The notes under the pieces were generated by a model. That model was not told where the DNA came from, searched no databases, and saw nothing but the letters and a program-made list of their open reading frames with translations. From Rhizobiales bacterium 62-47 (GTDB lineage Bacteria; Pseudomonadota; Alphaproteobacteria; Rhizobiales; Xanthobacteraceae), in NCBI GenBank assembly GCA_001899255.1, contig MKVX01000002.1:434001-498000 (forward strand): DNA of 64,000 nucleotides, written 5' to 3'. The translations under genes were made by a program, and so were the position numbers. Each line of letters opens with the position of its first letter. Positions within the stretch are counted from its first letter, which is position 1. Shown here piece after piece: positions 41,106 through 61,879 of the stretch.

Positions 41106-42623
41106 TCAGAACTGGAAATACAAAAACCGCGTCGTCCGGAAAAACAACAGAACCGAGACTCCAAAAAGAACGCCAAGCAGCACGGCTCCAGACGCGGAGC
41201 CGAGAAACATTCGAAGCCTCTCGATCTGCCGGGAGTCCGGCTCCAACGTCGGATATCCGCCCTGCTTGGCGTCAGAACCGCTCACCACGGGATGGAACGG
41301 CAGCCTGAATATCTGCTGCACATTCGGACATGCAAAGACGATGACAAGGCTCAGGATGAGAAGCGCAAAAGCAAAATAGCGCTCATTTACGAGCTGAGGT
41401 GCGGTGATGTTCCAGGCGATGCCAAAGCCCGCCATCGACCGGAGGATGTGAAGAGCGGCCTCGATCGTTGGTGCGCGAAAGAAGACCCAAGCCACCACCA
41501 CGCAAAAGAACGTCAAGATGACGCCGACAGCCTGGACCCCGAATAGCGCCGCCAACCACCGCGGCGCATTCTTGCGAAAGGCATGATTGATCAGGAGGTA
41601 GCAACCATGAATCGTTCCCCACACGACGAAGGTCCATTCCGCGCCGTGCCAGAGACCGCCGAGCATCATCGTGATCATGAGATTGACGTATCGCCTGGAA
41701 TGCCCGCTGCGATTGCCTCCGAGCGGGATATAGAGATAGTCGCGCAGGAAGCGGGATAACGTCATGTGCCAGCGCCGCCAGAAATCGACGATGCTCGCCG
41801 CACGATAGGGAGAGTAGAAATTGAGCGGAAGCTCGATATTGAACATCAGCGAAATGCCGATCGCCATGTCGCAATATCCGGAAAAATCGAAATAGAGCTG
41901 GAGCGTGTAAGCGAGCGCGCCAAACCAGGCATCTGCGAAGGACAGGCTCGATGTCGAATTGAAGACCATATCCGCGTAAGGCGCCAGCGCATCGGCGAGC
42001 AGAATTTTCTTGGCAAGCCCGATAATGAAGATCGCTGTTCCTGTACTGAAGTTCCGATAGGAGAACCTTGCCGCATTTGGCCGATTGAACTGCGGGATCA
42101 TTTCCGCATGATGAAGGATCGGACCGGCGATCAGATGCGGGAAATACGAGACGAACAAGACATACTCTGGAAGTCCCGTCTTTTTTACCTTGCCGACGTA
42201 GCAGTCCACCAGGAAAGCAATTTGCGTAAAGGTATAAAAGGAAATGCCGACAGGGAGCACGACGCTCCACGTCGATGGTGAAAGACCAAACGCCTGCGTG
42301 ACATTGGCCAGAAAGAAGCCTGCATATTTGTAGTAGCCGAGCGCGGCCAGATCGGCTGCAATCGCAAGAGCCGTAATACTTTTCGCCGAGATCAGTGCGC
42401 CGGGCTTTCTTGCTTTTACGATGAAGTAGCCCGCGGAGAAATTAAGAATGATCGACCCCGCCAACAACCACACCAGCGCAGGGCCGGACACGGAGTAGAA
42501 CACCAGCGACATCGCGCCGAGCCAGAGCACGGGCCATTGTCCGCCGGCACGTCCCAGCAACACATATCCGATGAGACAGACGGGCAGAAACGCAAAGATG
42601 AATGCGTAGGAATTGAACAGCAT
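41106..42623 (-). CDS. MBOAT family O-acetyltransferase (AlgI-like)
   Basis: A 505-residue polytopic membrane protein that moves acyl groups across the inner membrane onto extracytoplasmic polymers. AlgI-type features are YFPHLIAGPILHHAEMIPQF, DFSGYCDMAIGISLMF, LPLNFYSPYRAASIVDFWRRWHMTLSRFL, and the catalytic His in LGGLWHGAEWTFVVWG. It starts eight bases after the stop of the SGNH-like gene, so the two form a pair in the style of AlgI with AlgJ/AlgX. The target polymer is unknown. Confidence 0.9.
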   Translation of the reverse strand: MLFNSYAFIFAFLPVCLIGYVLLGRAGGQWPVLWLGAMSLVFYSVSGPALVWLLAGSIILNFSAGYFIVKARKPGALISAKSITALAIAADLAALGYYKYAGFFLANVTQAFGLSPSTWSVVLPVGISFYTFTQIAFLVDCYVGKVKKTGLPEYVLFVSYFPHLIAGPILHHAEMIPQFNRPNAARFSYRNFSTGTAIFIIGLAKKILLADALAPYADMVFNSTSSLSFADAWFGALAYTLQLYFDFSGYCDMAIGISLMFNIELPLNFYSPYRAASIVDFWRRWHMTLSRFLRDYLYIPLGGNRSGHSRRYVNLMITMMLGGLWHGAEWTFVVWGTIHGCYLLINHAFRKNAPRWLAALFGVQAVGVILTFFCVVVAWVFFRAPTIEAALHILRSMAGFGIAWNITAPQLVNERYFAFALLILSLVIVFACPNVQQIFRLPFHPVVSGSDAKQGGYPTLEPDSRQIERLRMFLGSASGAVLLGVLFGVSVLLFFRTTRFLYFQF

Positions 42624-42631
42624 CGCGCGAA

Positions 42632-43750
42632 CTATTCCGGCGGACAGGTGACAGAGGCTTGTGCGATAGCGCGCACGGCAGCACTGATCGACGCATTTGA
42701 CTCTGCGGTCCGCTGATACGTACCGTCATGCATCCAACGCACGAGCTGGTCGCTGGCCGCCGGATCGAAATGGCCAACGTCCATGAATCGTCGGCAATCG
42801 CGCTCGATACTGTCGGCAGCAAGAAAATCGAAATATCGAATGTTCGGGATATCGGCAATCTTTGCGACGAAGGCTTCCTGGGCGATGTTCGATGCCGCAA
42901 TCAATCCTGCCTGCTCGCGGTAGCGAAGCAGCATTTGTAGCAGCGGCGGATTGAAAATATAGAACGTCGTCGCCGGCCAGCGCTTTGCCAGACTTATGAA
43001 ATCATCCATACATTTGAGTGTCGCCGATGCTTCGGCGGCGATCCGGGCATCATTCATCGGCGGTGGTTGAGTTGCGGGAATTTCTCGCTGGATCGCGTTG
43101 GCAATATGAGCGGGGTTATCGAAATTGGATGCCCACGTCTCGTACCACCTGTGAGTGGCTTCTGGATGCCTTGAAAAGTAGGAACTTCTGTACCCTGCCC
43201 GAAACAGCAGCTCGCCTGCCGAGAACAGCAACGACTCGAAAGACGCAAGATACTTGGCGTTGCCTCTCGCGCTGTCGTCATACAGGTCGAGTGGAAACTT
43301 CCAGAACGGATGGTATCCCTCGCCGCACACGCCCCAGGTCGAAGCCTCGAGAAACACATAACGCAGATGGGGGCGATGCCCCAACAGGTAGTCACGCGTG
43401 ATCCGTTGCTCGCGGCTCGAACCGCCGAAGACCGAGAAGACTTCAGTCCGCACACCGAACAGCGCTTCGATCAATGCCGGATCGAAATTGCCAATGTAGG
43501 AAGAGCCAACAACCGCAGCCTGAAATGGCGGATCGGTACGAATACGGCCCGCGTTCGTCGTCCGCTGATAATTCCGCGAGACAACATACACATCGCTGCC
43601 GCGGATGAGATGAAGCGGATCGACGACAAAATTTGTCGCGACGACGACGACAAGCGTGGTGACGAAAGCCGCGAACAATACGATCCACCAACGCCGCCCT
43701 ACCGGGAGGCTTGCCGACCGCTCTGGCACGATTGCAGCTTCGCGTTGCAT
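42632..43750 (-). CDS. Membrane-anchored SGNH/AlgX-like partner of the MBOAT protein
   Basis: A 372-residue protein with an N-terminal signal anchor (WWIVLFAAFVTTLVVVVATNF) and an extracytoplasmic domain of SGNH-like layout: nucleophile region AAVVGSSYIGNFDPALIEAL, a middle region with FLEASTWGVCGEGYHPFW, and a C-terminal DVGHFDPAASDQLVRWM that would supply Asp and His. Likely the periplasmic acetyl acceptor/transferase working with the downstream MBOAT. ATG 43750 precedes the anchor directly; the frame to 43849 adds an unlikely leader. Confidence 0.78.
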   Translation of the reverse strand: MQREAAIVPERSASLPVGRRWWIVLFAAFVTTLVVVVATNFVVDPLHLIRGSDVYVVSRNYQRTTNAGRIRTDPPFQAAVVGSSYIGNFDPALIEALFGVRTEVFSVFGGSSREQRITRDYLLGHRPHLRYVFLEASTWGVCGEGYHPFWKFPLDLYDDSARGNAKYLASFESLLFSAGELLFRAGYRSSYFSRHPEATHRWYETWASNFDNPAHIANAIQREIPATQPPPMNDARIAAEASATLKCMDDFISLAKRWPATTFYIFNPPLLQMLLRYREQAGLIAASNIAQEAFVAKIADIPNIRYFDFLAADSIERDCRRFMDVGHFDPAASDQLVRWMHDGTYQRTAESNASISAAVRAIAQASVTCPPE

Positions 43751-44043
43751 ATGACCATCATCGCAGAAGGGTAATGACCGACACAACTTGTCCGTGAATG
43801 AGCAGGAGGATAGCAATCGCCCCCTGTTCTTTGGAAAGGCCGCTCGCAACCGGCCTCAACGCTCGACTTTCTAAATCTGGAAATAGCGAGAATATCTAAA
43901 ATCCCGGTTTGACGCGTATGGAGACTACGCCGCTCAATTCGGATTTGAGGCTACGAAAGCACAGTCTGGAATATTGAGCTGGTGCGCGAGAGGGCATCAC
44001 ATTTTGTTACTAGCTGCTACGTTGACGTGCGTTTTCGATGTAA

Positions 44044-44369: not shown

Positions 44370-45002
44370 TCACTTATCTGGCGATGACGGGCTCTCCAGG
44401 CTTCGACCAAACATCATGCTAGGTGCTTCTTGATTCACCGAGGCAAACTGATTGAGCGGCACCGAAGTCATAACGGTGGAAATGCGTGAATCGACGACCT
44501 TTAGTATCATCTCTCGTCCAGCCTTCATCCGGCGAATGAAGACCGCATCCACCGCGCGCGCAGCGACGCAGGTATTAGAAAAACACCAGGCGAAGGGAAT
44601 GCTGACCGCATCGCGTTGGCCGAGGGAGACCCTGACGCCGGCCTCCAGGAACAACATCGGCGGCACGAAAATCTGCAGACGGCCGCCCTTGCCGGCGGCT
44701 CCTTCTATCAAATCGACCCGCAGCATCTCCTGACCCGTCTCCGTCACGCCGGTGATGCTTGTCCGGCAAATCATGGCCTCGGAAGGTTGAAAGCAGAGTT
44801 TACGCCAGCCGGAGAATCTGAGCTGCCTGAGCTGACGCTCGCCACGCGCTTCGATCATCGCTTCCGGAGACTTTGTAGCCGGAGCCTGGCTCGCCGAATT
44901 CGCTTTCTGTCCTCTGGCGCTCCCGCCCGCGTCTGCCGCCAGAGCGATACCTACGAGCAGCAATATCCGAGACGCAGTCCATCGTGAGCGACGACGAGCC
45001 AT
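44370..45002 (-). CDS. IalB family secreted protein, second copy
   Basis: A 210-residue exported protein: signal peptide (ASRILLLVGIALAADAGGSA), linker, then the IalB domain with FSGWRKLCFQPSEAMICRTS, LQIFVPPMLFLEAGVRVSLG and PFAWCFSNTCVAARAVDAVF. The four cysteines match the disulfide-forming pattern of IalB proteins better than the copy at 14536. It starts 20 bp after the stop of the upstream hydrolase, so the two probably share a transcript. Confidence 0.83.
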   Translation of the reverse strand: MARRRSRWTASRILLLVGIALAADAGGSARGQKANSASQAPATKSPEAMIEARGERQLRQLRFSGWRKLCFQPSEAMICRTSITGVTETGQEMLRVDLIEGAAGKGGRLQIFVPPMLFLEAGVRVSLGQRDAVSIPFAWCFSNTCVAARAVDAVFIRRMKAGREMILKVVDSRISTVMTSVPLNQFASVNQEAPSMMFGRSLESPSSPDK

Positions 45003-45022
45003 GATTGATCTCCGCGGAGCAA

Positions 45023-45970
45023 CTAGGGGTGCAGATCCAGGAAGCGGCTGACAATTGGTGACCAGATCGGGATTGCATCGGCCGAATGCAGGAAGAAATG
45101 CCCTTCGTCCCCGAAATCCGGCAGCAGGTGATACTCGGCGTTCCCACCGGCCGCCCGATAGGCATCCAACACCTTCTTCGACAGATCGGGGCCGAAATAG
45201 GTGTCGTTGTGGACGTAGATCGATAGCATCGGAATTTTGGCCGTGCGGCCAAACTCGCCGGCCGCGGCAACGAGCCTGTCAGGCGCGCAATTGTTGTTGG
45301 GCTTGCCGTCGACACGGCCGCCGCGGCCTGCCTCAAACGTGATGATCGCCCGGATCGAGTCGGACTTCAGGCTCGAGAGGGCGATCGCGCCCCAGCCGCC
45401 ACCCGACTGGCCGACGACGATGACCCCCTTCGGCAACACCTCGTTTTGACGGATCATATGATCGATGACCCACTGATTGATCGTGGCAACGGCAATCCCC
45501 GCGTCGCGGAAATTGACCGCCGAGCATTGCCCGACATCGCCGAAATACAGTCCGTACAGACCGCGCTCGGGGAGATCGATTGCGGAGCGCGCAAATCCCG
45601 GACGGATGGGAACGACGACCAGATTGCCTCGCCGCGCGAACCAGAATGCGGCATCCCGGAATTCGACCAGCGGGAAGAAACTCCGCTCGGTCGCATCCAG
45701 CGACTCGCCGTGGTTCATGACGACGAGGGGGAGGGGACCTGCGATGATGGGCCGGAACTCGTACGCGAGAATGGGGATCGGCGTCGAAAGCAGTATCAGC
45801 TTCTCTTCCACCCGCGGCATCGAGTCATCGGCAGCACGGCTCGATGCGGCGGCGAGGACGAGCATGCAGACGGCCAGGAGCAACCTGCTCGCCGTCGCGC
45901 ACAACGTCGCCGGCGAATTCTGTCTCACAAGAGCTGCTTGTGCACCATTCATCGGTTCGGCCGGTAACAT
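45023..45970 (-). CDS. Secreted alpha/beta hydrolase, paralogue 2
   Basis: A 315-residue exported hydrolase: signal peptide RLLLAVCMLVLAAASSRA, elbow VVGQSGGGWGAIALSSL, acid motif VHNDTYFGPDLS, His in GDEGHFFLHS, and a Cys in GDVGQCSAVNF. The same landmarks occur at 24207. A GAGAG site six bases before ATG 45970 supports the start. It is divergent from the DUF3604 gene at 46105, and a perfect dyad lies 16 bp upstream of its start codon. Substrate unknown; ester or carboxylic substrates are likely for the fold. Confidence 0.82.
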   Translation of the reverse strand: MLPAEPMNGAQAALVRQNSPATLCATASRLLLAVCMLVLAAASSRAADDSMPRVEEKLILLSTPIPILAYEFRPIIAGPLPLVVMNHGESLDATERSFFPLVEFRDAAFWFARRGNLVVVPIRPGFARSAIDLPERGLYGLYFGDVGQCSAVNFRDAGIAVATINQWVIDHMIRQNEVLPKGVIVVGQSGGGWGAIALSSLKSDSIRAIITFEAGRGGRVDGKPNNNCAPDRLVAAAGEFGRTAKIPMLSIYVHNDTYFGPDLSKKVLDAYRAAGGNAEYHLLPDFGDEGHFFLHSADAIPIWSPIVSRFLDLHP

Positions 45971-45985
45971 GGAATCTCTCGGCGC

Positions 45986-46005
45986 ATTGTTCGCGGGCGA
46001 ACAAT
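45986..46005. promoter_or_regulatory. Perfect 9+2+9 dyad operator candidate
   Basis: ATTGTTCGC (45986-45994), GG, GCGAACAAT (45997-46005) is a perfect inverted repeat in the 134 bp between the divergent hydrolase and DUF3604 genes. Size and symmetry fit a dimeric repressor site (TetR, GntR or LacI style). It is not a Crp/Fnr box. Confidence 0.65.
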
Positions 46006-46104
46006 TCGTCTGGGAAATGCATGGTAAAGGAGCGTGCCTCGCGGTCCGGGAAATCTTCGGACGCGCGACCCGAAGCGCGGCGGCGACAAATACGGGGCCT
46101 GAAT

Positions 46105-48030
46105 ATGAAGAACAGTGCGGAGGACCTCACCACAATCAGGCATCGCGCCATCGGCGGCGGCCTGCTGCTGGCCGCATCCTTGTTCACGCTTCAAGTGCGC
46201 GCGAACGAATTGAAGCTCATGGCGGCCAATCCCGCGATTCAGAAGGAACAGGCGCGGATCGTGGCCGCGGAGGCCAAAGCTCCCTCCAACCCGCTGCGCG
46301 AGGCTTATTTCGGCGAGACACATGTCCACACGGCCTATTCGCTGGACGCCTATCTCGGCGGAGCGCGGCTGACGCCGGATACCGCATATCGCTTTGCCCA
46401 GGGCGAAAAGATGACGGTCAACGGGCGGGTGCATCGCATCGTCGAGCCGCTCGATTTCGCGGCGGTAACCGACCACGCGGAATATCTAGGCGAGATGTAT
46501 TCGACCATGGTGAACGGCGCGCCGGGACACGATCAGGACAAGCTGAAGGAGCTTCGGTCGATGACCTCGATCGAGGACCGTGAGACCTGGTTCCTCAATT
46601 ACGTCGTGAAGAGCAATCGGTCCGATACGCCGCAGCACCCGCCGTTCTTCGCGGGTCCCGAGACCACGAAGAGCGCCTGGGTCATCGAGCTCGAGGCCAC
46701 CGAGCGGAACTATCATCCGGGCAAGTTCACGACGATCCCGGCGTTCGAATGGAGCGCAGCGCCCAAGGGCGGCAATCTGCATCGCAACGTGTTCTTTCGG
46801 GACATCCGCGTTCCCGAGATTCCCATGAGCTACATCGAGATCAATCGCGAGGACGGGCTTTGGGCCTGGATGGGCGGCCTGGAAAAGATCGGCGCCTCCG
46901 TCATCGCGATCCCGCACAATTCGAACGCCAGCAAGGGCATGATGTTCGACCCGCTCGATCCGCAGGGCAGGCCGATCGATGCGGCCTATGCGAAGACGCG
47001 GGCCCATTTCGAGCCGCTGATCGAGATGATGCAGGTGAAGGGCAATTCGGAGGTTCACCGGAATTTCTGGGCCGCCGACGAATTCGCGAATTTTGAGAAC
47101 GCGGACTCGATGGCGAACTACAGCGGGCGTGTGGCCAAGAAAGAGAATTTTGTTCGCTACGGGCTAGTCAAGGGACTCGAGTACGAGCGCACGCTGGGAG
47201 CCAATCCCTACAAGTATGGCGTCGTCGGCGGCACCGATAGCCACAACGGCACGCCCGGCGATACCGACGAAAGCAATTTCAAAGTCGGCAGCCACGGTGC
47301 CGCCGACGGCACGGTCGAGCGACGCCGGACCGCGGAGGTCGGCGGCTGGATCGGCGGCATCGACCTCAATCCCGGAGCGCTTGCCGGCGTCTGGGCGACC
47401 AGCAACACGCGCGGCGCCATCTGGGACGCGATGAAGGCGAAAGAAACGTTTGCCACCAGCGGTGTCCGCATCAAGGTCCGCATGTTCGCGGGCTTCGATC
47501 TTCCCGGACCAGATGCCAATCCGAAAGCCATGGTCGAGACCGGCTACAGGCTGGGCGTGCCGATGGGCGGAACCCTGCCGGCGGTCGCACCGGGCGAGAA
47601 GCGGCCGTTGCGCTTCAATGTGACGGCGATCAAGGGTCCAAAGGACGCCAATCTCGATCGCATCCAGATCATCAAGGGCTGGATCGGCGCAGACGGCGCG
47701 CCGCAGGAAAAGATCGTCAACATCGCGTGGTCCGGCGATCGCAAGATCGGGCCGGACGGCAAGCTGCCGCCGGTGGCCAATACCGTGGATCTGAAGACGG
47801 CAACCTACCGCAATTCGGCCGGAAGCCCCCAATTGACCGGGAGCTGGGTGGACGACGAATTCGAGCCCACCCAGTACGCGCTCTATTACGCCCGTGTGTT
47901 GCAGATCCCGACACCGCGCTGGAGCACCTATGACGCCGTGCGCGCCAACCTGCCGCTGCTCGACGGCGTGCCGGCCACGGTGCAGGAGCGGGCCTGGACG
48001 TCGCCGATCTGGTACACGGCCGCGAAGTAG
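46105..48030 (+). CDS. DUF3604 protein 1: exported PHP-like metallohydrolase candidate
   Basis: A 641-residue exported protein with a signal peptide (AIGGGLLLAASLFTLQVRA). It carries the landmarks of a PHP-type metal site: GETHVHTAYSLDAYL with H73 and H75, AVTDHAEYLGEM with D123 and H124, IPHNSNASKG with H271, and GGTDSHNGTPG with D378 and H380. The protein ends QERAWTSPIWYTAAK, shared with the copy at 50805. The family is annotated only as DUF3604; PHP membership and hydrolase activity are my inference from motif order. ATG 46105 gives the signal peptide; the frame extends to 45844 through the operator and upstream gene. Confidence 0.85.
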   Translation: MKNSAEDLTTIRHRAIGGGLLLAASLFTLQVRANELKLMAANPAIQKEQARIVAAEAKAPSNPLREAYFGETHVHTAYSLDAYLGGARLTPDTAYRFAQGEKMTVNGRVHRIVEPLDFAAVTDHAEYLGEMYSTMVNGAPGHDQDKLKELRSMTSIEDRETWFLNYVVKSNRSDTPQHPPFFAGPETTKSAWVIELEATERNYHPGKFTTIPAFEWSAAPKGGNLHRNVFFRDIRVPEIPMSYIEINREDGLWAWMGGLEKIGASVIAIPHNSNASKGMMFDPLDPQGRPIDAAYAKTRAHFEPLIEMMQVKGNSEVHRNFWAADEFANFENADSMANYSGRVAKKENFVRYGLVKGLEYERTLGANPYKYGVVGGTDSHNGTPGDTDESNFKVGSHGAADGTVERRRTAEVGGWIGGIDLNPGALAGVWATSNTRGAIWDAMKAKETFATSGVRIKVRMFAGFDLPGPDANPKAMVETGYRLGVPMGGTLPAVAPGEKRPLRFNVTAIKGPKDANLDRIQIIKGWIGADGAPQEKIVNIAWSGDRKIGPDGKLPPVANTVDLKTATYRNSAGSPQLTGSWVDDEFEPTQYALYYARVLQIPTPRWSTYDAVRANLPLLDGVPATVQERAWTSPIWYTAAK

Positions 48031-48070
48031 GTCTCGTCGGATCGCGAAACCGGGGGCAGATCAGCGCCTC

Positions 48071-48502
48071 TTATTGGCGCCCGGCTCGGGCAGGCGTGCT
48101 TATTTCTTTATATCGCAGATGTTCGGAACGCCGGCGATCGAGCGCCGGCATTTCTCCGTCCTGGTCGGCGAGCAGCAGGCGCAAAATCGTTCGGAAGGAA
48201 ATGCTTCGATTGCCGAGCAACGCGGTGTTGTCGTTTTCGGCGCCGTGATCGGTATAGGTTCCGCTAAAGCCGATGGTGGCGACTTTTCGCGCGAAGGGCC
48301 GTGTCGCCAGGTCCAGCGTATGCTCTTGCGAGGTGACCTCACCCTTCCACTTGCCGCCGCTGCAGATATAGCTGCCGGTGAAATAGAAGAACGAGTCGCC
48401 GCCCCGGATCGTGCCGTCGCGCAGCACCAGGACGCCATTGCCTCCGCCTTGAACGCCGTCCAGCAACTCGACGGTCAGCGCGTACAGCCCGTTTCTGATC
48501 AT
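48071..48502 (-). CDS. GrlR-family regulatory protein
   Basis: A 143-residue small beta-barrel protein matching the GrlR type: it opens with IRNGLYALTVELLDG and continues VLVLRDGTIRGGDSFFYFTG and YICSGGKWKGEVTSQEHTL. GrlR in enteropathogens binds and silences the type III secretion activator GrlA; homologues in rhizobia are not tied to secretion and no such genes are here. ATG 48502 has AAGGG upstream. ATG 48523 is possible and would overlap the stop of the preceding small gene. Confidence 0.72.
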   Translation of the reverse strand: MIRNGLYALTVELLDGVQGGGNGVLVLRDGTIRGGDSFFYFTGSYICSGGKWKGEVTSQEHTLDLATRPFARKVATIGFSGTYTDHGAENDNTALLGNRSISFRTILRLLLADQDGEMPALDRRRSEHLRYKEISTPARAGRQ

Positions 48503-48519
48503 GACGGCGTCCCTTCGGT

Positions 48520-48720
48520 TCATGACGTGAAGTACAGATAGTTGCTCCAGCTCGTGCGGCCTTCGCCGTCTGCGGCAGCCAAGTGGCGCTGCTCGAGCTG
48601 CCGTTGGTCTACGTCGAAATTGCCGTGGCCGTCGGTGCCGCCGCTTGCGCCCGGGTCGATTTCAACCAGCAACAAGGGCAGCGTAAGAAGCGCTCGGATC
48701 AGAATGCCTGCGGCCTTCAT
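48520..48720 (-). CDS. Small putative exported peptide upstream of GrlR gene
   Basis: A 66-residue frame with a signal-like start (MKAAGILIRALLTLPLLLVE) and a polar, acidic remainder ending SWSNYLYFTS. GGAG six bases before ATG 48720 and a stop overlapping a possible GrlR start at 48523 favour a real two-gene unit. No family recognised. It could be chance. Confidence 0.4.
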   Translation of the reverse strand: MKAAGILIRALLTLPLLLVEIDPGASGGTDGHGNFDVDQRQLEQRHLAAADGEGRTSWSNYLYFTS

Positions 48721-48930
48721 TTGCACTCCCATCCAACTTTGCGACCGCGCGAGGGGATTTGCAGCACTCAGCCGCGCGCGCATCGCACTCGCTCGGGTAG
48801 TTCAAAGGTCACCGATCCGCGAAGAATAACAGGCGCCGGAATTGACATTGATCACGCGCGATCATTTGAAGACCAAATGTCTTAGGCCATCCAAGTGCGA
48901 TGTCGGCTGGTAGATTGGGTTGACCAATCT

Positions 48931-49926
48931 CTAGATCGCGAAGCTCGTAACCCTCGTCACGAACCAGACCATCGAAATGGTGCCGATCAGATAGGCGGCG
49001 GCGAGGCGGGTCGGCACGACCGGCCATGTGACGAGCGCTGTCGCCGCCCTGACGGCGATCAGGATCGCGGCGACGAAGAGAAGCTGGCCGGCCTCGACAC
49101 CCACGTTGAACATGAGCAGCGCCAGCGGGATGTCGAGTTGCGGCAACCCCGTCTCCTTGAGCGCGCCGGCAAAGCCGAAGCCGTGCAGCAGGCCGAAGGC
49201 GAAGGCCACCACCCAGGGATAGGCTTGCGAAAGCCGTCGTTCGCCCGCTTTGATCTTGATGAGCTCGCTCGCCACGAAGGCGATGCTGAGCGCGATAGAG
49301 GCTTCGACGGGCTTCTGCGGCAGGCTGAAATAGCCGAGAGTGGCGCCTGCCAGCGTGATGCTGTGTGCGATCGTGAAGGCGGTGATCGTCTTTGCCAGCA
49401 TCCAGAGGTCACGGATCAGCAGCATCAGCGCCAGCACGAACAGCAGATGATCGAAGCCCGTGAGAATGTGATCGACCCCCAGCAGCAGATAGGTCTTCGC
49501 GACCTCCAGCGTGCTCTGGGCGCCCACAACGAGGATGGTCGGGGAATCAGGGGTGATCCGTGCAACTTCCGTGGTGCCGTCGCGGTACTCAATTCGCGCC
49601 AGCGCGTCCGTCACGCCTGACTTCAGGCCGTCGACGGAAATCTCGCGACCCTTCAATCCGCCGGTGCAAACCACGCTCGATCGTTCAAAAAAGGACCCCG
49701 CCTGAATGGTCCTGACCGGTTCCGCCTTGGGGCGGCACGACGCCGGCAGTCGCACGTAGATCCCGAGCCGCAAATCGCCGAGCGCCGGCACTTTCCACAC
49801 GACCGCGAATTCGTCGGCGGCCGTTTCCCGGATGTCGAGATAGGCGGGCCGAAGCTCATCGGCCGCGGCGAGATGGACCGCGAACAACTGCGCGAGAAAA
49901 AGAAGAATGCCGGCGAGACGGGTCAT
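48931..49926 (-). CDS. HupE/UreJ-type membrane protein with periplasmic N-terminal domain
   Basis: A 331-residue protein. Signal peptide (LAGILLFLAQLFAVHLAAA), an extracytoplasmic domain of about 150 residues, then about seven transmembrane helices. They carry the HupE/UreJ histidine motifs LGVDHILTGFDHLLFVLALM, FTIAHSITLAG and FGLLHGFGFAGAL, and FNVGVEAGQLLFV. HupE/UreJ proteins are nickel or cobalt permeases; this longer group is less studied. Its ATG overlaps the stop of the parvulin gene, so it is the last gene of the DUF3604 operon. Confidence 0.83.
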   Translation of the reverse strand: MTRLAGILLFLAQLFAVHLAAADELRPAYLDIRETAADEFAVVWKVPALGDLRLGIYVRLPASCRPKAEPVRTIQAGSFFERSSVVCTGGLKGREISVDGLKSGVTDALARIEYRDGTTEVARITPDSPTILVVGAQSTLEVAKTYLLLGVDHILTGFDHLLFVLALMLLIRDLWMLAKTITAFTIAHSITLAGATLGYFSLPQKPVEASIALSIAFVASELIKIKAGERRLSQAYPWVVAFAFGLLHGFGFAGALKETGLPQLDIPLALLMFNVGVEAGQLLFVAAILIAVRAATALVTWPVVPTRLAAAYLIGTISMVWFVTRVTSFAI

Positions 49927-50789
49927 GGGCCGTTCGCCAACCGGGGAGCGCCCTTCGGCTTCTGCTCCATCGTGATCCGGTAGCGAGTCAGCAGCACGGC
50001 CAGGCGCTGCTCCTCGATCGCCTTTCTCTTCTCGTCCGCCCACTCGCGTTCGACCGCGGCGCGAACCTCGGCAAGGGCGGGCGCGCGCCCGGCCTGACGC
50101 TCAGTGATCCGGACCAGATGCAGTCCGAAGTCCGACTCGACCGGCCCGGTCCATTGTCCAGTCGCGATCTTGTCGAGGGCGTCAGCGAACGAGGGGCCAA
50201 AGGTATGGCTGATCGACGCCTTGCCGGTAAGTTCGAGCTTGCGCGGGAGCAGGGTGGCGTCGCCGAGCTCGCCCAGATCGATCGACGGTTTGGCGCGCAG
50301 GACCTGAAGGACTGAGGCTGCGTCCTGATCTATTTTTTCACCATGCCGATCGGGGCTCAGCAGCACCTGCTCGAAAGCGTAGGCGGGATCGACCTCGAAC
50401 TTTTCGGAATTGTCTTTCAGATAGGTTTCGAGCTCGGCGTCGGTCGGAGTCAAGGTCGCGGTCTCGGCGCTGTTCAAAAACTCCATCTTGAGACGGAGAC
50501 GGCGGCGAATGATCACGTCGTCCTTATCGAGACCAAGCGCGAGCGCCTCGCGGACGAAAATCTCCTCCTTCACGTAGTCGTCGATCAGATTCTTCAGCTC
50601 GACGGATGTCGGCGGCCGCTGCCAAATCGCGCCGAATTGCGCGGCAATCCGATCAACCCGGGACTCCGTGATGACGATCTCGTCCGACTTGCCCGCCTCA
50701 AAGCGATTGGAGACGCCGTAAGCGACAAAGACGGCGACGGCCAGCGCCAAAAAATGCAGCAATGGCTCTTTGAGGATGCGTTTCATCAT
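49923..50789 (-). CDS. Periplasmic parvulin-type peptidyl-prolyl isomerase (PpiC/SurA-like)
   Basis: A 288-residue foldase with an N-terminal signal anchor (PLLHFLALAVAVFVAYGV), a SurA-like helical region (LIDDYVKEEIFVREALALGL), and a parvulin domain (AYAFEQVLLSPDRHGEKIDQD; FGPSFADALDKIATGQWTGP; ESDFGLHLVRITER). It lies 15 bp after the DUF3604 gene and overlaps the HupE-like gene by four bases. A dedicated role in folding the exported DUF3604 protein is an attractive inference. Confidence 0.86.
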   Translation of the reverse strand: MMKRILKEPLLHFLALAVAVFVAYGVSNRFEAGKSDEIVITESRVDRIAAQFGAIWQRPPTSVELKNLIDDYVKEEIFVREALALGLDKDDVIIRRRLRLKMEFLNSAETATLTPTDAELETYLKDNSEKFEVDPAYAFEQVLLSPDRHGEKIDQDAASVLQVLRAKPSIDLGELGDATLLPRKLELTGKASISHTFGPSFADALDKIATGQWTGPVESDFGLHLVRITERQAGRAPALAEVRAAVEREWADEKRKAIEEQRLAVLLTRYRITMEQKPKGAPRLANGP

Positions 50790-50804
50790 GGATGCGGCCG
50801 CCGT

Positions 50805-52835
50805 TTACGAGGGCGTGTACCAGACGGGCGAAGTCCAGGCGCGCTCCTGATGCTTCATCGGAACCTCCGGCGGCATCTTGATCCCGAAGCGGAACGCATC
50901 ATAGGCGGTCCAGCGTGGCGTCGGGATCTCGATGACGCGCGCATAGTAGAACGCCCGCACGGTTCGATCGAAGTCCGGGTCCTTCCAGGTCCCGACGAGT
51001 TCGGAAGCGCCGATGGTGTTGGTCCAGGTGGCATGCGCCACGTCCACCGTGTCGCCGACCGGTGGCAGCTTGCCGTCCTTTCCAGGCTTGCGGCGCTGCG
51101 CATCGCTCCACACCACGTTGTAGATCTTTTCCTGCGGCTTGCCGGCCTTGTCGAGCCAGCCCTTGACGATCTGGATGCGGTCGAGGTTGCCACCTTGTGC
51201 GTCCTTCATCGCCGCGATCAGGAAGGAGGGAGCCTTGCCCGCCGCCAATGGCTTCGGGAGGTCCGCGCCCATCGGCACGCCCTTGGCGTAACCGGTCTCG
51301 GCGACGTAGCGCGAGCGCGCGTCGTCGGCGGTAAAGTCCCATCCGGCGAACAAGCGAACCGTCATGCGGGTGCCCGAAGTTGCGTAGACCTCCTTGCGCT
51401 TCATCGCGTCCCACAGCGCTTCGCGGGTGTTCTCGGTGGCCCAAACCGCCGCATAGCCGGCCGCCGTATAGTGCCAGTTGTAGCGGGTCTTGCCGAAACC
51501 CTGTTTGGCGACTCGCTCCCAGCGAGTCGGGCTCGGTTCCTGGTCGACGTGCTTGCCGTAGAAATTATCCTCCTCGATCGAGGTGAGCGAGTTGTGCACA
51601 TCGGTGCCGCCGATGAAGCCGAACTTGAACGGATTGATGCCGAGTTTGCTCTCCTGCATCAGGCCCTGCAGCAATCCCCAGCGGAGGTAGTTGGTCGGCA
51701 TCATCTCGCGGGACAGCGGCTTGTCCTCGAGCGTCAGATTGCCGTATTCCCAGCCGGCAATGCCGAAATCCGAGAACTCGTCGTTCGGGGACAGCGCGGG
51801 ATGTGTCTCGCTCGAGCCCTTGGTCTGCATCATTTCCTGCAGCACTTCCCAGCGGGCGCGGCGCTCGGCATAGTCCTTCGAGAGCGGCTTGCCGGCAAAA
51901 TCCACCAGTTCGAACATGCGGCCGTTGGACAGGTTCGCGTTATGCGGGATGGCGAGCAGGTTGCCGCCGGTCTTCTGCTCGTATTTCTCCATCCAGTCCC
52001 AGAGTTTCTCCGGATCCTCGCTCTGCCAGGACGAGAACGGCAAGATCTGATCGGCCTTGTCCTTATTGTCGCGGAACAGCACGTTGCGATGCAGATTGTT
52101 GCCGCCGGGAACGGAGGTCCATTCGAAGCCGATCATCGCGGTGAAGCGCCCGGGATCATTGAACTTCTCGGCGGTCGCCGTGTACTCCTGCCAGACCGAC
52201 TTCATGATCGGAACGACGACCTTCGGATTCTTGACGGGAGCCGGCAGCTTGCCCTGGGCCTGAGCTGACACAAGTTCGCGCATCGTCGCCGCCGCCTCCA
52301 GTCCTCCGGCCTTCATCGCCTTGCCCCACCGATCGAGCGTCGGATCGGCAGCAAATGCAGGATTCCCCTCGTAGACCTGCAGCATGACGCCCAGGCCTTC
52401 GGCGTGGTCCGAGATGACCAGGAAGTCCAGCGGTCGCGACAGCTTGGCCGGAACGCCGCTCGACGAGACGACCTCCTCGCCGCGCGCGAAGCGATAGGAT
52501 TGCTCCGGCGTCAGCCGGTTGCCGGCCATGAACGCGTCGCCGGAATTGGCGGTGTGATGATGCGTGTCGCCGAAGAACACGCGCGTGGGATATTTGCGGC
52601 CGGCATAGGGCGAGTAGCGTTTCTTTGCTTCAGCGCCTGCCGGCGTCTCCGGCTTGGTTTCGCGAGCAACGCCGTCGTCCGGATCGAACGCGCCCTTGAC
52701 CGAGACATCATCGGCGGCGGCCCCAGGCGCTGCCGATTGTGCGCTGGCATTTCCGGGCACCGCAACGGCGAGCGCCAGTCCGGCAACCGCAATGGCGATT
52801 GAGGCAGGAATAATTGTCCGCTTTTGCTTCATCAT
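50805..52835 (-). CDS. DUF3604 protein 2: exported PHP-like metallohydrolase candidate
   Basis: A 676-residue exported protein with a signal peptide (SIAIAVAGLALAVAVPGNASA). Metal-site motifs parallel the protein at 46105: FGDTHHHTANSGDAF (H92, H94), VISDHAEGLGVM, IPHNANLSNG and GGTDVHNSLTS. It ends HQERAWTSPVWYTPS. The two are diverged paralogues. ATG 52835 is chosen for its AGGG site and signal peptide; the frame runs on to 53039 through the promoter region. First gene of an operon with the parvulin and HupE-like genes, and controlled from the region holding an FNR/FixK box. Confidence 0.85.
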   Translation of the reverse strand: MMKQKRTIIPASIAIAVAGLALAVAVPGNASAQSAAPGAAADDVSVKGAFDPDDGVARETKPETPAGAEAKKRYSPYAGRKYPTRVFFGDTHHHTANSGDAFMAGNRLTPEQSYRFARGEEVVSSSGVPAKLSRPLDFLVISDHAEGLGVMLQVYEGNPAFAADPTLDRWGKAMKAGGLEAAATMRELVSAQAQGKLPAPVKNPKVVVPIMKSVWQEYTATAEKFNDPGRFTAMIGFEWTSVPGGNNLHRNVLFRDNKDKADQILPFSSWQSEDPEKLWDWMEKYEQKTGGNLLAIPHNANLSNGRMFELVDFAGKPLSKDYAERRARWEVLQEMMQTKGSSETHPALSPNDEFSDFGIAGWEYGNLTLEDKPLSREMMPTNYLRWGLLQGLMQESKLGINPFKFGFIGGTDVHNSLTSIEEDNFYGKHVDQEPSPTRWERVAKQGFGKTRYNWHYTAAGYAAVWATENTREALWDAMKRKEVYATSGTRMTVRLFAGWDFTADDARSRYVAETGYAKGVPMGADLPKPLAAGKAPSFLIAAMKDAQGGNLDRIQIVKGWLDKAGKPQEKIYNVVWSDAQRRKPGKDGKLPPVGDTVDVAHATWTNTIGASELVGTWKDPDFDRTVRAFYYARVIEIPTPRWTAYDAFRFGIKMPPEVPMKHQERAWTSPVWYTPS

Positions 52836-52973
52836 GATCCCTGACCTCTTCGCTGCTTGTTCGTTTGGAATGAGCGCGGGTTCTGCCGACGGGTCTTGGC
52901 GCAGGGCGAGTTCGCGTGCCGCCGAAACGGAATGCGACAGATAGCAGCGCACTACAAAACTACCTGTGCGATC

Positions 52974-52987
52974 TTGATCCTGATCAA
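52974..52987. promoter_or_regulatory. FNR/FixK-type box
   Basis: TTGATCCTGATCAA matches the TTGAT-N4-ATCAA consensus fully, and the symmetry extends to CTTGATC-CT-GATCAAG (52973-52988). It lies 138 bp upstream of the DUF3604 operon and 73 bp upstream of the Crp/Fnr gene. A weaker relative, TTGAGATTGATCAC, is at 53026-53039. Anaerobic or microaerobic control is implied. Confidence 0.8.
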
Positions 52988-53060
52988 GCCGTGTATTCGG
53001 CTCCCTGCCTAGCAATAAAGCCTCATTGAGATTGATCACCGGCGACCCATTGGAGCCAGA

Positions 53061-53756
53061 ATGATCAGCAAGGAAACAGCCTCTGAGATCGTGAGCGGCA
53101 AGGGTTGGCTCCGCAATACGCCGTCGTCATTTCGTAGCGCTGTACTGAAGCGCTGCCTGCTGGAGCACTTCGGCGCGGGCACGCCGATCTATGCGATCGA
53201 CGATGAGCCCGGCGGGCTTTATGGGCTTGTCGAAGGAGGACTCGGCATCTCGATCGCGCCCCGGGAACTGGGACCCTATACCGCGCATTTCGCGATGCCT
53301 GGCACCTGGTTCGGGGAAGGCTCGGCCTTTACGCGCCAACCCCGAAAGGTTGGCCTGACCGCGGCCAGGCCAACCACAATGCTGCATCTGCCGCTGCGCG
53401 GCGTCGACGAGATTGTCGGCGGCGACCCAGCTGCCTGGCGGTTATTCGGCCTCCTGGCGCTCGATCATCTCGATCTGGCCATGGGGGGCTCGGACGACCT
53501 GATGATACGCAATCATGTCAAGCGTTTCGTGGCTGTGCTGCTGCGCCTCGGGGACTGCCGCGTCGCAACTCCGGCAAACGACCAGCCGATCGAGGTGGAC
53601 CTCAATCATGAAGACATCGCCTATATGGCCAATGTCGCCCGAACCACGGCCGGTGCCATCCTGCGCCGGCTCGAGGCCGATGGGCTCGTGACACTGTCGT
53701 ACCGCTGCGTCGGCATCCTTGCGCCAGACACGCTACGCAAGATGCTGCTCGATTGA
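53061..53756 (+). CDS. Crp/Fnr family transcriptional regulator, divergent from DUF3604 operon
   Basis: A 231-residue regulator. The N-terminal effector domain (YAIDDEPGGLYGLVEGGLGISI; MPGTWFGEGSAF) matches the Crp-like barrel. A helical linker leads to a winged helix, HEDIAYMANVARTTAGAILR then RLEADGLVTLSYRCVGIL. It lacks the four-cysteine FNR cluster, so it would sense something other than oxygen directly or act in a FixK-like way. It is divergent from DUF3604 protein 2 across a perfect FNR/FixK box, which it or another family member may bind. Confidence 0.85.
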   Translation: MISKETASEIVSGKGWLRNTPSSFRSAVLKRCLLEHFGAGTPIYAIDDEPGGLYGLVEGGLGISIAPRELGPYTAHFAMPGTWFGEGSAFTRQPRKVGLTAARPTTMLHLPLRGVDEIVGGDPAAWRLFGLLALDHLDLAMGGSDDLMIRNHVKRFVAVLLRLGDCRVATPANDQPIEVDLNHEDIAYMANVARTTAGAILRRLEADGLVTLSYRCVGILAPDTLRKMLLD

Positions 53757-54421
53757 GCATGGCTCGATCGGATCGACCCTAGCAACGTCCGTTCGGGGTC
53801 ACTTCCGGACTCGCCGCGGCGACAGCGGCGGAGTCCGCTTTACCACGGACAGCTGACCCCGGCTGGTCTCGAACGCGCTGGGATATAGCCGCAAGACGAT
53901 GCCCAGAGCCGCATGCGGCCAATTACCAGGCCGGACTTGGGTCAAGGACGGCCGATTCCCGAAGCCGGTCAAGCTCGGCGTCAAGACCACCGCATGGCGG
54001 GTCGAGGGTGTCCTCTTAGAATTGATCTTCACATCGGAGAGGCGGCCGGTGGCAAGAGAGGATTTGCGCTGCCGTCCCCGGCCCGTCCCTAGCCCATTTT
54101 ACGCGAAAGCGGCTTCTGCTAGGTGCTGGTGCGCCACTCAGGGTAAAACTACGAACTCATATGTAATTGAAGTTATTATATAATTTCCAATGGTGGAACC
54201 TGATAATCAGAGCAATCGGCAAGCGTCAGGCACCATGACTTCGCAGAAAGCCGACGGTACCCAGCTGGCCGCTGTGGAAATGGCCGAGATAGCCAGCGCT
54301 TGTGCGGCCGCACGTTGTCGTAATGACTTTATGCCGTCTAGTGATGACGCCGAGAGTCCGTTCGGCAATTGGTAACACCTGTGGCACTATGCTCTCCGTG
54401 TAGCTTTGAGTTGTGTGCCTA
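53757..54421. other. Island border region with remnants
   Basis: About 665 bp with no intact gene. It includes an AlpA-like fragment (53935-54027), an AT-rich stretch near 54150-54190, and a GTGCGGCCGCAC palindrome (54302-54313) before the HTH gene. Short frames on both strands here have poor composition and no family match. Confidence 0.55.
53935..54027 (+). pseudogene. AlpA/excisionase-like regulator remnant
   Basis: One frame reads TWVKDGRFPKPVKLGVKTTAWRVEGVLLE, closely matching the recognition-helix and wing part of AlpA-family phage regulators (the usual GRFPKPVKLG...AW). The upstream helix (normally L-S-R-S-T-L-Y) is missing and the following residues are unrelated, so it is a broken piece of an island or prophage regulator. 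It marks the left border of the defence island. Confidence 0.6.
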
Positions 54422-54763
54422 ATGCCGTTGACCCGAACCTTTAAGAGTACCGTTAAGGCCCGGGCCACGCAGGACGCTACATTCCGTGCTGCTTTACTCT
54501 CCGAAGGCGTTGAAACCCTCCTGTCCGGCGACATCCAAAACGCCAAAAGCGCGCTGCGGTCTTATATCAATGCAACTATCGGCTTTGAATCTTTGGCGCG
54601 AACAACAGGGACGCCGCCCAAAAGTCTGATGCGGATGTTCGGCCCGCGCGGCAATCCGAGCGCACGCAACCTCTCCGCTGTTCTCAAGCACCTGCAACAG
54701 AACGCCGGTTTCGACCTTCAGGTCACGCCCGTCAGGCGCAACGCGAAGGGCGGGAGAAAATGA
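54422..54763 (+). CDS. HTH transcriptional regulator (antitoxin/controller type)
   Basis: A 113-residue regulator of the small HTH type found beside toxin-antitoxin and restriction genes. Features are LTRTFKSTVKARATQDATFR, ALRSYINATIGFESLARTTG (helix 1), TPPKSLMRMFGPRGNPSARN (recognition helix) and LSAVLKHLQQNAGFDLQV. No partner toxin is adjacent, and it leads directly into the restriction-modification operon through an overlapping micro-ORF, so a controller (C-protein-like) role is inferred. The start is the ATG at 54422. Confidence 0.78.
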   Translation: MPLTRTFKSTVKARATQDATFRAALLSEGVETLLSGDIQNAKSALRSYINATIGFESLARTTGTPPKSLMRMFGPRGNPSARNLSAVLKHLQQNAGFDLQVTPVRRNAKGGRK

Positions 54764-54840
54764 AGGTCATTTTGTTCTTGTTGTGTTCTTTTGTCGGGGC
54801 TACGCTCGTCCTTTATGATTTCGAAAGCGCAACATCGTGA
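54760..54840 (+). CDS. 26-residue membrane micro-ORF linking regulator and methylase
   Basis: The frame starts with ATGA overlapping the HTH stop (54761-54763) and ends with a TGA overlapping the GTG start of the methylase (54837). It encodes MKVILFLLCSFVGATLVLY plus a short acidic tail, a single hydrophobic helix. Overlaps on both sides suggest translational coupling through the operon. It may be a real micro-protein or only a coupling leader. Confidence 0.5.
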   Translation: MKVILFLLCSFVGATLVLYDFESATS

Positions 54841-57800
54841 CCGTCGGGCTCTCTACCCAATGGATGGAGACACTTTCTCTGTCCCGCCGCCAGGCGCCCG
54901 AATTATACATGGCCGGTACCCCTGTTGAGGGACCGCACGCTCAGGCTATTGCCTTCGCGCTGAAGGAACTGGGGCTCGCTGCAGTTTTTTGTATCGAGGG
55001 TGTACCGACGATCGGTTTTCTCAACGACCCGGATGCTTCCGCCGACCGTGTCGATACTGTTCACCGCATCCTATGGAACCAGGGGCTGATGAGTCTGCTG
55101 CTGGTGATCCGGCAGGATGACCTAATGGCCTATTCGCTCGTGAAGCGGCCATTTCACCGTGAGCAGGGGGCTAGCGCAGCGGATCCCCGTCTCATTACCA
55201 CGCTATCGCTCGTGAACGATGCGGTTCGCCTGCGAGAGCTTGTTGATTCAGCTCAATCGGGTCGGTTTTGGTTTGAGAACGACCCCTATTTCGATCCGGA
55301 TCAGCGCGTCGATAGTGTTTTGCTGTCAAATCTCCTTCAGTCCTTTCGCGAACTGAAGGAAGAACTCGGGAGCGATGCTGCGCAGGCGCTCCTCATGCAG
55401 ACGATGTTCATCGCTTACCTCGAAGATCGCAAGATCATCAAATCCGAGGTCTTTAAGGAGGCGTCAGACGGCGCTCATGCCAGTTTTTCTGACATGCTCG
55501 AAGCGAGAACAACCGCCTCATTCGAGACTTTGTTCGACTGGCTGAAGGCCGCATTCAATGGAAACGTATTCAACGCCCCCTGTGCGTTTGACGTTGAGGG
55601 GGGCCGGCCGCCCAAGCTAAAGGCTAAGCAGCTTAAGGTGCTTGCGCGATTCCGACATGGACGCGAGGAAATGACCTCCGGCCAGATGCACTTTTTCGGG
55701 TACGATTTTGAATATATGTCGATCGGCTTGATCAGCGCGGTCTACGATCGCTTTCTCAAGGAGGAAGTAGAGCGAGCTAATTCAGACGGCGCGTTTTACA
55801 CGCCAATGTTTCTGGCCGATGTCGTCGTCAACCAATTATGGGATGACCTCAACGATGAGCAACGCTCTTCGGGTGTTTTTTGCGATCCGGCATGTGGCTC
55901 AGGCATTTTTCTGGTGCGCCTGTTTCAGCGGCTTGTTGCCTATCACTGTCAGCAGAAGAAGAAGCGGCATGCCACATGGAACGAACTGAAGACGATTGCG
56001 CGTCGTCTTCGCGGTGCCGATATTAACCCGGCCGCAGTAAGAGTGGCCGCGTTCTCTCTCTATATAACACTGCTCGAGCAGTCCAATCCGCCTGATCTGC
56101 CGGCGCTGATAGACGCCGGCAAGTTGCTGCCGTCCCTTTACGGCGACACGCTTCGCCCGGCGCAGGATTTTTTCACGAGCGATGATGGCGGCCACTACGA
56201 TGCCGTTATCGGGAATCCGCCGTGGAAAGGACGCGGCGGGTCGGTCACCACAGCCCAACAGTGGACCAAATCGCAAAATCTTCCTGACCCTGCCAAGGAT
56301 ATCGCGTGGGGATTTGTCTGGAAGTCGCTACGCGTGCTTAAACCCAAGGGGATCGTTGCTCTCTTGCTTCCGGCAATGGGAATTCTGCACAACAACGACA
56401 GTGAAACAGCACGAAAACTTCTTCTTCTGAAGGCCAGGATTAGGCGCGTCATCAACCTCTCAGACCTGTGCTTTCAGCTTTTCGACGGCGCTCAAAGGCC
56501 GACTGCGTTTATTCTGTATGAAAATATTCGAACTGAGGGTGAGCCTTACCGTTTCGAGTATTGGGTGCCGAAAGCAGACCTGAACTTACGCCTCAAGCGC
56601 ATGATGACATTGTCGCGTGGTGATCGCATTCAGCTGCGTTCAGACGTAGTCAACGCAGATCCAAGCGTATTTAAGCGGCGTCTCTGGTCGAGACCCCCTG
56701 ACGAGAAACTCTTGCAGTTCCTACGCACGATTCCAGCGCTGAACGATTTTATAGGCGAGTATAAGACGCTTCGAAAGGCTGAATTCAACCGAGATAAGAC
56801 CTGGGCTATCGGCCAAGGCTTCCAACCTGCACAACCTGACAAGCTAGGAACCGAAGGCTACCGAACGACCACTTCGGAGATCGTTACCCGTTATCCCTAT
56901 CTCAGTGCTGATGCATTTTGCCCTGTGGCTCTGCCCAAGATCAAAACTAAGCCATGGAAAACAAAAACTGTGCGGCGAGCAGGCTTTCCGCACGGGTTCA
57001 AGGGCCCTCACATTCTAATTCCTCAGGGCGTTGAGCGCGCAATGCCTCGTCTTCGCGCAAGTTATACGGACCAAAGTCTGGTATTTGAAGACTCTCTTCA
57101 AGCGATTGCTTTCCCGCCGGCAAAACACCGCACCGCAAAATTGCTGACGGCAGTGCTCAACAGCAGTCTGTCGGCGTGGTTTTATTTTCATGATACAGCA
57201 AACTTTGGCGCCGACCGCGCCAAAGTTCACCAGAACGATCTTTTGAAATTGCCGTTTTCGCTTCCGAAAGATATGCCGGACCCGGATCGAGCTGCGGCAG
57301 CAGCCGCTAAGATCGTGCGTCTCATTGATCGCGAGATCAAACATTCAAACGATTTGCTGCGAGATTCAACCGGCGTATTAAACGAGATCGATCATCTCGT
57401 TTTCGAGTATTATGGGTTGGACCAGAGCGATATCGCTCTTGTCGAGGATACGTTCAATTATATTCTCCCAGCCATGCAGCCCCGTCGAAGCGCGGGAATG
57501 CAACGGATCTGGGAAAACAGCCGGATCGAACACCGGCATGCCTATGCGACGATGCTCTGCGATTCGCTGAAGCCGTGGTTCCGCAAGCCCATCATTGCAT
57601 CGCTTGCGGCAAAATCGGCAGACGTCGCAATTCTTCGCCTCAGCATCGCCGACAACAAAAGAGCTTCTGACTATTCCGAGACCAAATCAGATGAGTTGGT
57701 GCCCTTTCTCAATCAAATTAGCCAGAGCCTACCCAGGCGCTTGCCCGGAAATGTGCAGGTTGTGCCGGATCTGAGGTTTGTAATTGGGAGTGAGATGTAT

Positions 57801-58557: not shown

Positions 58558-58559
58558 GC

Positions 58560-61667: not shown

Positions 61668-61688
61668 GTTTCTGTAGGATGCATGCGG

Positions 61689-61802: not shown

Positions 61803-61879
61803 TTTTTTGGAAGTCGGCGTTTTCGTTTGGGTCAGTCCTTCAGGCATCAAGTCCCTCGTTGATCAACGAGGGGAAGCGG

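Follow-up and report, generated by a model that had tools for sequence, protein, structure and literature searches.

Why should an exported protein of the DUF3604 family be encoded in a tight operon with a parvulin and a HupE/UreJ permease? The question is raised by a stretch of 64,000 nucleotides from Rhizobiales bacterium 62-47 (contig MKVX01000002.1, positions 434,001 to 498,000), hereafter the window, where three genes follow one another on the minus strand. DUF3604-B, a predicted exported PHP-type metallohydrolase (50805..52835; PF12228, E 1.1e-239, 797 bits), is followed after 15 bp by PpiC, a membrane-anchored parvulin of the SurA/PEB4 type (49923..50789; PF13145, Rotamase_2, E 1.3e-12), whose stop codon overlaps by 4 bp with the ATG of HupE, a HupE_UreJ_2 permease with an N-terminal beta-sandwich resembling ZrgA and the anglerases (48931..49926; PF13795, E 1.2e-46, 158.7 bits against a cut-off of 24.5). 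A paralogue that is likewise predicted to be exported, DUF3604-A (46105..48030, plus strand; PF12228, E 2e-202, 674 bits), lies 2.8 kb away, apart from the operon and on the opposite strand; it is 41% identical to DUF3604-B and retains every ligand position, and both proteins exceed the curated PF12228 cut-off of 20.4 bits. An earlier note on this DNA had grouped the two paralogues, the parvulin and the permease with an IalB protein, an alpha/beta hydrolase and a GrlR protein into one exported, metal-dependent hydrolase set. On balance, we favor a narrower reading, in which DUF3604-B, PpiC, and HupE form one unit, a periplasmic PHP hydrolase with its own chaperone and a metal-handling permease, in which folding would be coupled to metal loading.

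The association of the three genes is near-obligate across genomes. Retrieval with DUF3604-B gave 80 named loci, 44 of which have at least 4 kb on either side of the DUF3604 genes; PpiC and HupE lie within 5 kb in 32 of these 44, always on the same strand and with PpiC before HupE (32/32). The named trio loci include Pseudomonadota, Bacteroidota, Planctomycetota, Verrucomicrobiota, Thermodesulfobacteriota, and one cyanobacterial metagenome-assembled genome. In an evenly drawn sample of the class (142 genomes, including that of the window), DUF3604 reaches at least 600 bits in 12 genomes; 11 of them, all but G052, carry the HupE subtype of the trio (Fisher 1.5e-15; this P value and the next are descriptive, because the sampled genomes share descent). 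Among the places examined, the subtype was found in no genome outside the 12; for these counts the HupE hidden Markov model was built partly from loci of the same sample, the HupE calls for G099, G116, and G121 relied on adjacency and on loci that are truncated, and five weak PF13795 places of 21–26 bits (in G080, G095, G104, G120, and G128) were left out. At two loci (L132 and L145), a HupE of the trio subtype (E 5e-108 and 4e-122) stands away from DUF3604, which is present elsewhere in both genomes.

The same pattern was found in an evenly drawn sample at the phylum level (299 genomes, again including that of the window), where all 16 genomes with DUF3604 at 600 bits or more carry a full-length trio-type HupE (Fisher 1.3e-25), or 16 of 17 when the divergent G254 is counted. 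When up to seven candidates per genome were scored with a profile that includes the HupE of the window genome and of G022, trio-type HupE amounted to 20 genes in 17 genomes, at 297–431 bits with almost the full profile aligned; the next-best HupE reached 217 bits and aligned only from profile position 94 onward. Nineteen of the 20 genes lie no more than 1.6 kb from a DUF3604 match (one such match being a remnant), and PpiC is directly upstream of HupE in all 18 places that were fetched. By itself, PF13145 is uninformative as a survey probe, as it occurs in 141 of the 142 class-sample genomes. The trio also occurs on a deeper branch, where G123 and G054 encode a divergent DUF3604 of 752 or 774 amino acids next to a distant PpiC and HupE. 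Overall, a survey of this neighborhood, which the earlier note had set as one test of its proposal, finds the DUF3604-PpiC-HupE order conserved across phyla, and chance is excluded as the origin of the trio.

Two loci show the operon in reduced form. In G293 (L180, G293:C12), the one genome of the 17 with trio-type HupE that has no DUF3604 of 600 bits, PpiC and HupE are retained beside a DUF3604 remnant of 113 amino acids with an internal stop, and the enzyme is apparently decaying ahead of its helpers. In L195 (G167:C2:46039-46476), a single frame of 333 amino acids joins DUF3604 positions 1–54 to the final third of the HupE profile, which looks like an operon shortened through internal deletion with the DUF3604-PpiC-HupE order kept.

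The conserved residues of DUF3604 point to a metal site. Across 73 aligned DUF3604 proteins, two from the window and 71 from loci that were fetched, the residues H33, H35, D41, H85, E179, H190, H239, D353, and H355 are invariant and D84 is conserved in at least 90%, in the numbering of the DUF3604-B model, where residue n starts at 52658-3(n-1). The succession of HxH, DH, H, and DxH motifs that the earlier note had described in two exported paralogues is indeed present in both; the order in A and B is more completely HxH, DH, E, H, H, DxH, with an invariant Glu and a second His. An AlphaFold2 model of DUF3604-B (predicted local distance difference test score, pLDDT, 94.6; predicted template-modeling score 0.93) places seven predicted strands (26–34, 79–82, 172–180, 234–238, 273–278, 347–350, and 403–407) in alternation with helices up to about residue 420, followed by a beta-sandwich, and the conserved ligands sit at the strand ends or just past them. 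PHP domains have the same seven-strand topology and the same order of ligands, and the predicted fold of DUF3604-B is consistent with PHP. The HxH/DH/E/H/DxH order is also visible in the aligned PolX rows. DUF3604 shares its motif order and seven-strand barrel with the PHP superfamily (PolX, TrpH/RNase AM), from which it differs in being exported, in its long inserts and added C-terminal beta-sandwich, and in the weakness of the direct similarity.

Export is indicated for nearly all of the DUF3604 proteins surveyed. A simple script found a hydrophobic signal-like stretch in 122 of 128 DUF3604 open reading frames (ORFs), with a twin Arg in 8 and a lipobox-like motif in 26. For DUF3604-B, the earlier interval of 50805-53039 is the longest ORF, as the frame stays open up to 53039, whereas a start at 52835 (MMKQKR) leads into a signal-peptide-like N-terminus. 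Given such Sec-like signals, the enzyme probably folds and acquires its metal after export. Both DUF3604-B and A would be Sec-exported hydrolases, built from a PHP-type barrel that binds metal at two or three sites and from a C-terminal beta-sandwich.

A chain of profile comparisons connects DUF3604 with characterized hydrolases. DUF3604 matches a DUF3604-like family (98.5%, 1.4e-15), which in turn matches CehA/McbA-like proteins (96.5%, 8e-10), and these match the PHP domains of PolX (57%). CehA and McbA hydrolyze N-methylcarbamates such as carbaryl and carbofuran and require histidines, which in McbA are reported to lie in a predicted PHP-type domain (PMC8292978). They resemble DUF3604, as predicted here, in being exported PHP-domain hydrolases with essential histidines, and they are linked to it through the intermediate family profile; they differ in that neither window DUF3604 protein matches NF038032 (CehA/McbA; cut-off 80 bits) at E 0.01, and the direct match of DUF3604 to the CehA/McbA-like set reaches only 25%. 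We know of no obligate PpiC/HupE operon for CehA/McbA. Searches of PDB sequences with the DUF3604 proteins or their profile returned nothing meaningful (one chance row, spectrin, E 0.85). Judging from the N-methylcarbamate activity of CehA/McbA, the bond that DUF3604 would most likely cleave is an ester or a carbamate; its substrates would be small molecules, many of them aromatic, that are taken up into the periplasm. Another locus (L128, 2-5511) encodes an exported protein of the CehA/McbA-like kind, which scores 66 bits with NF038032 and so stays under the cut-off; it adjoins one PF04955 and one PF13795 HupE gene, and is a further PHP branch close to HupE permeases.

PpiC has the features of a periplasmic chaperone. 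Its best relatives of solved structure are PEB4 (3rfw, 8.8e-12) and then SurA, HP_0175, and PrsA, with which it shares the domain plan. The C-terminal parvulin signature WxGPxxSxxGxH, aligned with GPIRSGVGFH of SurA, is kept, W185, P188, S191, G194, and H196 being invariant (41 sequences). At the position of the His in the AKHIL motif of PEB4, PpiC instead has Gln (Q141 in 43 of 51 sequences). This first-strand His is catalytic in parvulins, and its replacement by Gln makes a binding or holding chaperone more likely than an isomerase; the foldase of the earlier note thus survives as a parvulin in a conserved trio, though without the usual catalytic residue. PpiC also differs from SurA, PEB4, and PrsA in being tied to one gene family. 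Ahead of the membrane anchor, PpiC carries a P-L-x-H-F motif (50751-50765), with P9 in 51, L10 in 47, H12 in 45, and F13 in 51 of 51 sequences. NifM, described as the PpiC-domain maturation factor of the nitrogenase Fe protein (PMC12691677), sets a precedent in which a parvulin is devoted to one metalloenzyme. The window PpiC shows weak NCBIfam similarity to NifM. Unlike PpiC, NifM is cytoplasmic and has no known permease partner.

The third protein, HupE, combines a permease with a periplasmic domain that the earlier note had not mentioned. The AlphaFold2 model (pLDDT 89.7) consists of a beta-sandwich of about 110 residues followed by membrane helices, and a Foldseek search with it placed ZrgA of Vibrio cholerae first (8ezw, E 5.3e-5, probability 1.00), with 8f1b also recovered, in a range of 5e-5 to 4e-4; structure 9GCE is absent among the 50 best rows. 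ZrgA is described as a zinc-binding uptake protein (PMC9820375), and its structure 8F1B is a reported DALI neighbor of RbAng-1a, the Ang-1 domain of a HupE/UreJ-2 protein (PMC12537917). In anglerases, a His following the signal peptide (His1) binds Cu or Ni and is reported to be 100% conserved (PMC12537917). With the cleavage site read by eye from AxA patterns, 40 of 52 DUF3604-linked HupE proteins have His directly after it, 11 have Asp, and one, a split ORF, has Arg; in 18 further loci this residue is His in 10 and Asp in 8. On a quick-method tree, this state changes at least five times, and the starred branches force two changes. Most DUF3604-linked relatives therefore share the His1 of anglerases, and the window HupE resembles the HupE/UreJ-2 anglerase permeases in its PF13795 membrane part, its secreted N-terminal beta-sandwich, and its structural neighbor ZrgA; unlike them, it has an N-domain of about 110 rather than about 175 residues and Asp at position 1. 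The window protein thus belongs to the HupE_UreJ_2 permeases and has, as modeled, a fold like that of the anglerases, from which the lack of His1 sets it apart. DUF3604-linked HupE further differs in its fixed partners PpiC and DUF3604, which are not among the anglerase neighbors named in section 8 of the anglerase paper (PMC12537917).

Within the membrane part of HupE, H131, D137, H138, H166, H226, and E256 are invariant (47 sequences), and the HupE profile had no match among PDB sequences. The earlier assignment of nickel or cobalt as the transported metal cannot be assumed. The window genome contains no match to the urease alpha subunit (PF00449) or NiFe hydrogenase (PF00374), and no other HupE was found in it; urease and hydrogenase are accordingly rejected as HupE clients, which leaves DUF3604 as the obvious one. 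In two loci, the next gene after the HupE_UreJ_2 gene of the trio belongs to a second metal permease family, HupE_UreJ (PF04955), and lies at 13616-14326 in L027 and at 11648-12340 in L034.

Taken together, the three proteins could work as follows. PpiC would be an inner-membrane-anchored chaperone of the SurA/PEB4 type, lacking the standard parvulin His, that takes up unfolded exported DUF3604. HupE would be a polytopic metal permease whose periplasmic ZrgA/anglerase-like N-domain captures or passes metal, and the two helpers, presumably in contact with the enzyme, would couple its folding with metal loading. It is possible, and we put this forward tentatively as something we would not yet expect to be true, that the trio is a periplasmic metalation machine, in which HupE and a catalytically dead parvulin load metal into a Sec-exported apo-hydrolase held by PpiC and His1/Asp1 tunes the metal. 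The metal would be caught by the His1/Asp1 N-domain of HupE or moved outward through its helices, and His1 or Asp1 would then set which metal is delivered.

Several observations weigh against the favored unit. Twelve of the 44 well-flanked loci have no linked PpiC/HupE, the PpiC-HupE pair of G391 lies 42 kb from the closest DUF3604, and G052 has a DUF3604 of 749 bits but gives no HupE match genome-wide, and the 14 kb retrieved from it contain none of the partner genes. Similarly, G254 has a divergent DUF3604 frame of 691 amino acids, about 30% identical to that of the window, which falls below the 600-bit cut because it is matched in three pieces (219, 190, and 49 bits); its genome lacks a trio-type HupE, and again the 14 kb retrieved contain neither partner. 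In the window itself, the operon of DUF3604-A lacks PpiC and HupE, the predicted mature position 1 of HupE is Asp, so that the His1 site of anglerases is absent, and parvulin catalysis has probably been lost in PpiC, judging from the aligned residues. For the fold, Foldseek with the full DUF3604-B model gave no PDB match at E ≤0.001: the PHP phosphoesterases 3o0f and 3e0f and RNase AM (9etk) appear at ranks 4, 11, and 12 (E 0.020–0.033), mixed in the top rows with beta-sandwiches of potassium channels and UNC119. The direct hhalign comparison of DUF3604 with the PolX PHP domain is also weak (probability 4.8%), with the HxH and DH motifs in alignment. The structure comparison called for by the earlier note thus gives a model consistent with PHP and weak PHP matches only; because Foldseek alone is weak, it is the order of the motifs, the topology, and the chain of profile matches that carry the PHP assignment. 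Finally, the importer role described for HupE/UreJ (PMC12537917) leaves the loading of a Sec-exported enzyme unexplained, since an import-only permease would not by itself load it; an import mode would better fit metal scavenging.

Metal scavenging is the core of one rival explanation, in which DUF3604 cleaves an organic metal complex or metallophore, either outside the cell or in the periplasm, HupE imports the freed metal, and PpiC only aids folding. The description of HupE/UreJ proteins as metal importers with N-terminal domains acting as metal-capture devices (PMC12537917) speaks for it, as do the resemblance of the HupE N-domain to a zinc uptake protein (PMC9820375) and the PF04955 genes that follow HupE_UreJ_2 in L027 and L034. 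The genes around DUF3604 fit it less well. A tally of 111 of 256 candidate ORFs, namely the 116 nearest once the near-duplicate loci L064, L065, and L074 had been dropped, less five, has as its commonest families Phenol_MetA_deg (9/111), PF04955 HupE_UreJ (4), sulfatase (3), DUF1254 (3), DUF1214 (3), and AraC types (2), with no TonB receptor or metallophore family among the best 25 of 94 families. In addition, 8–10 PF12228 matches, some of them fragments of one gene, occur in each of three genomes, which is more like a catabolic family. We consider metal acquisition unlikely.

The same neighbors would suit the breakdown of small compounds, perhaps aromatic ones, and the Phenol_MetA_deg, sulfatase, and AraC-type entries of the tally argue for a second rival, a catabolic hydrolase with an uptake permease. 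HupE would then carry an organic product or a co-released ion, and the Crp regulator next to the operon would tie the system to carbon or oxygen status; the CehA/McbA relatives are reported to initiate pesticide catabolism (PMC8292978). The invariant His, Asp, and Glu residues in the membrane part of HupE and its ZrgA-like domain argue against this role for the permease, and we regard it as improbable. That the genes are unrelated neighbors, assembled by chance or recent transfer, is barely credible for the locus as a whole and is contradicted for the trio by its co-occurrence and order across many phyla and families. We retain it for the genes of IalB, the alpha/beta hydrolase, and the GrlR-like protein, which are lineage-specific. 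We tried these three as partners of the trio and rejected them: among L001–L196 (many of them short, and with the DNA of the window excluded), Bradyrhizobium L003 alone has relatives of the hydrolase and GrlR-like genes, and no locus has one of IalB. Of the exported, metal-dependent set originally proposed, DUF3604, the foldase, and the metal permease are kept.

The family assignments of the remaining genes are of uneven strength. Profiles bear out the earlier calls of HupE/UreJ, PpiC-type parvulin, IalB (E 2.5e-23, near the trio), and the Crp/cNMP family. The alpha/beta hydrolase has a GxSxG elbow by eye and no Pfam or NCBIfam match at E 0.01; the GrlR protein has no such match either, its name coming solely from the earlier note. 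The paralogue pair recurs near the branch of the window: among the 16 loci with a B at least 69% identical to that of the window, 11 also carry a gene of the A type (at least 58% identity to A). Overall, A-type genes occur in 12 of the 80 loci, where the presence of a B-like gene at every A-type locus means little, as the 80 were found with B. The DUF3604 copies of the phylum sample are 36–45% identical to A and 37–54% to B, and so not clearly A-type; this leaves out the divergent DUF3604 of L194 (31% to A, 29% to B).

A regulator of the Crp/FNR family (53061..53756, plus strand; PF13545 4.5e-11, PF00027 7.9e-10) is divergent from the operon, and the 225-bp gap between it and DUF3604-B contains a perfect FNR/FixK-type palindrome, TTGATCCTGATCAA (52974..52987), as a candidate operator. 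We take the consensus behind this palindrome to be TTGATN4ATCAA, of which it is the sole perfect copy in the window, with 0.08 expected. Bradyrhizobium L003 has a one-mismatch FNR-type site upstream of its DUF3604-B. The palindrome suggests oxygen-linked control, in this lineage only: FNR-type sites with at most one mismatch occur in 6 of 129 DUF3604 upstream regions against 3.7 expected, the copies of the window being left out, and a general FNR-box rule for DUF3604 loci is not supported. Genes related to the Crp/FNR-family regulator are found in a few other loci, as an occasional neighbor. A search for sigma-70-like promoters gave 0 against 1.9 in shuffles, and terminator-like sites were at chance level (9 against 8.0 in shuffles).

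Farther out in the window, G+C falls from about 0.63 to 0.49–0.55 at 54000-62000, which is possibly a genomic island; an ORF of 1031 amino acids there (54837-57932) resembles a DNA methylase or restriction protein by eye. On the other side, at 41106-43849, an MBOAT/DltB-like O-acyltransferase (PF03062, 1.1e-35; the DltB model scores below its cut-off) is encoded beside an ORF of 405 amino acids that has no family match and is possibly its partner in surface acylation.

Each protein of the trio is of a known kind, and as far as our searches show, the three-part unit with its private HupE subtype is undescribed. In the literature searched, which left most subscription journals outside, DUF3604 had only a passing mention in a table row and PF12228 none, and the matches listed for HupE/UreJ together with peptidylprolyl isomerase, PpiC, or parvulin included no description of the trio. 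How metal is supplied to enzymes that fold outside the cytoplasm is largely an open question. The pairing of a private folding helper with a private metal membrane protein suggests a dedicated route for folding and metalating an exported enzyme, and the trio, with its three genes, is a small system in which to study how folding and metal loading may be coupled in the periplasm. One branch of the HupE proteins would also gain a client. DUF3604 itself emerges as a widespread family that is usually accompanied by one chaperone and by a HupE subtype found almost only with DUF3604, and it is likely, as predicted here, to be a new group of exported ester/carbamate hydrolases in many environmental bacteria.

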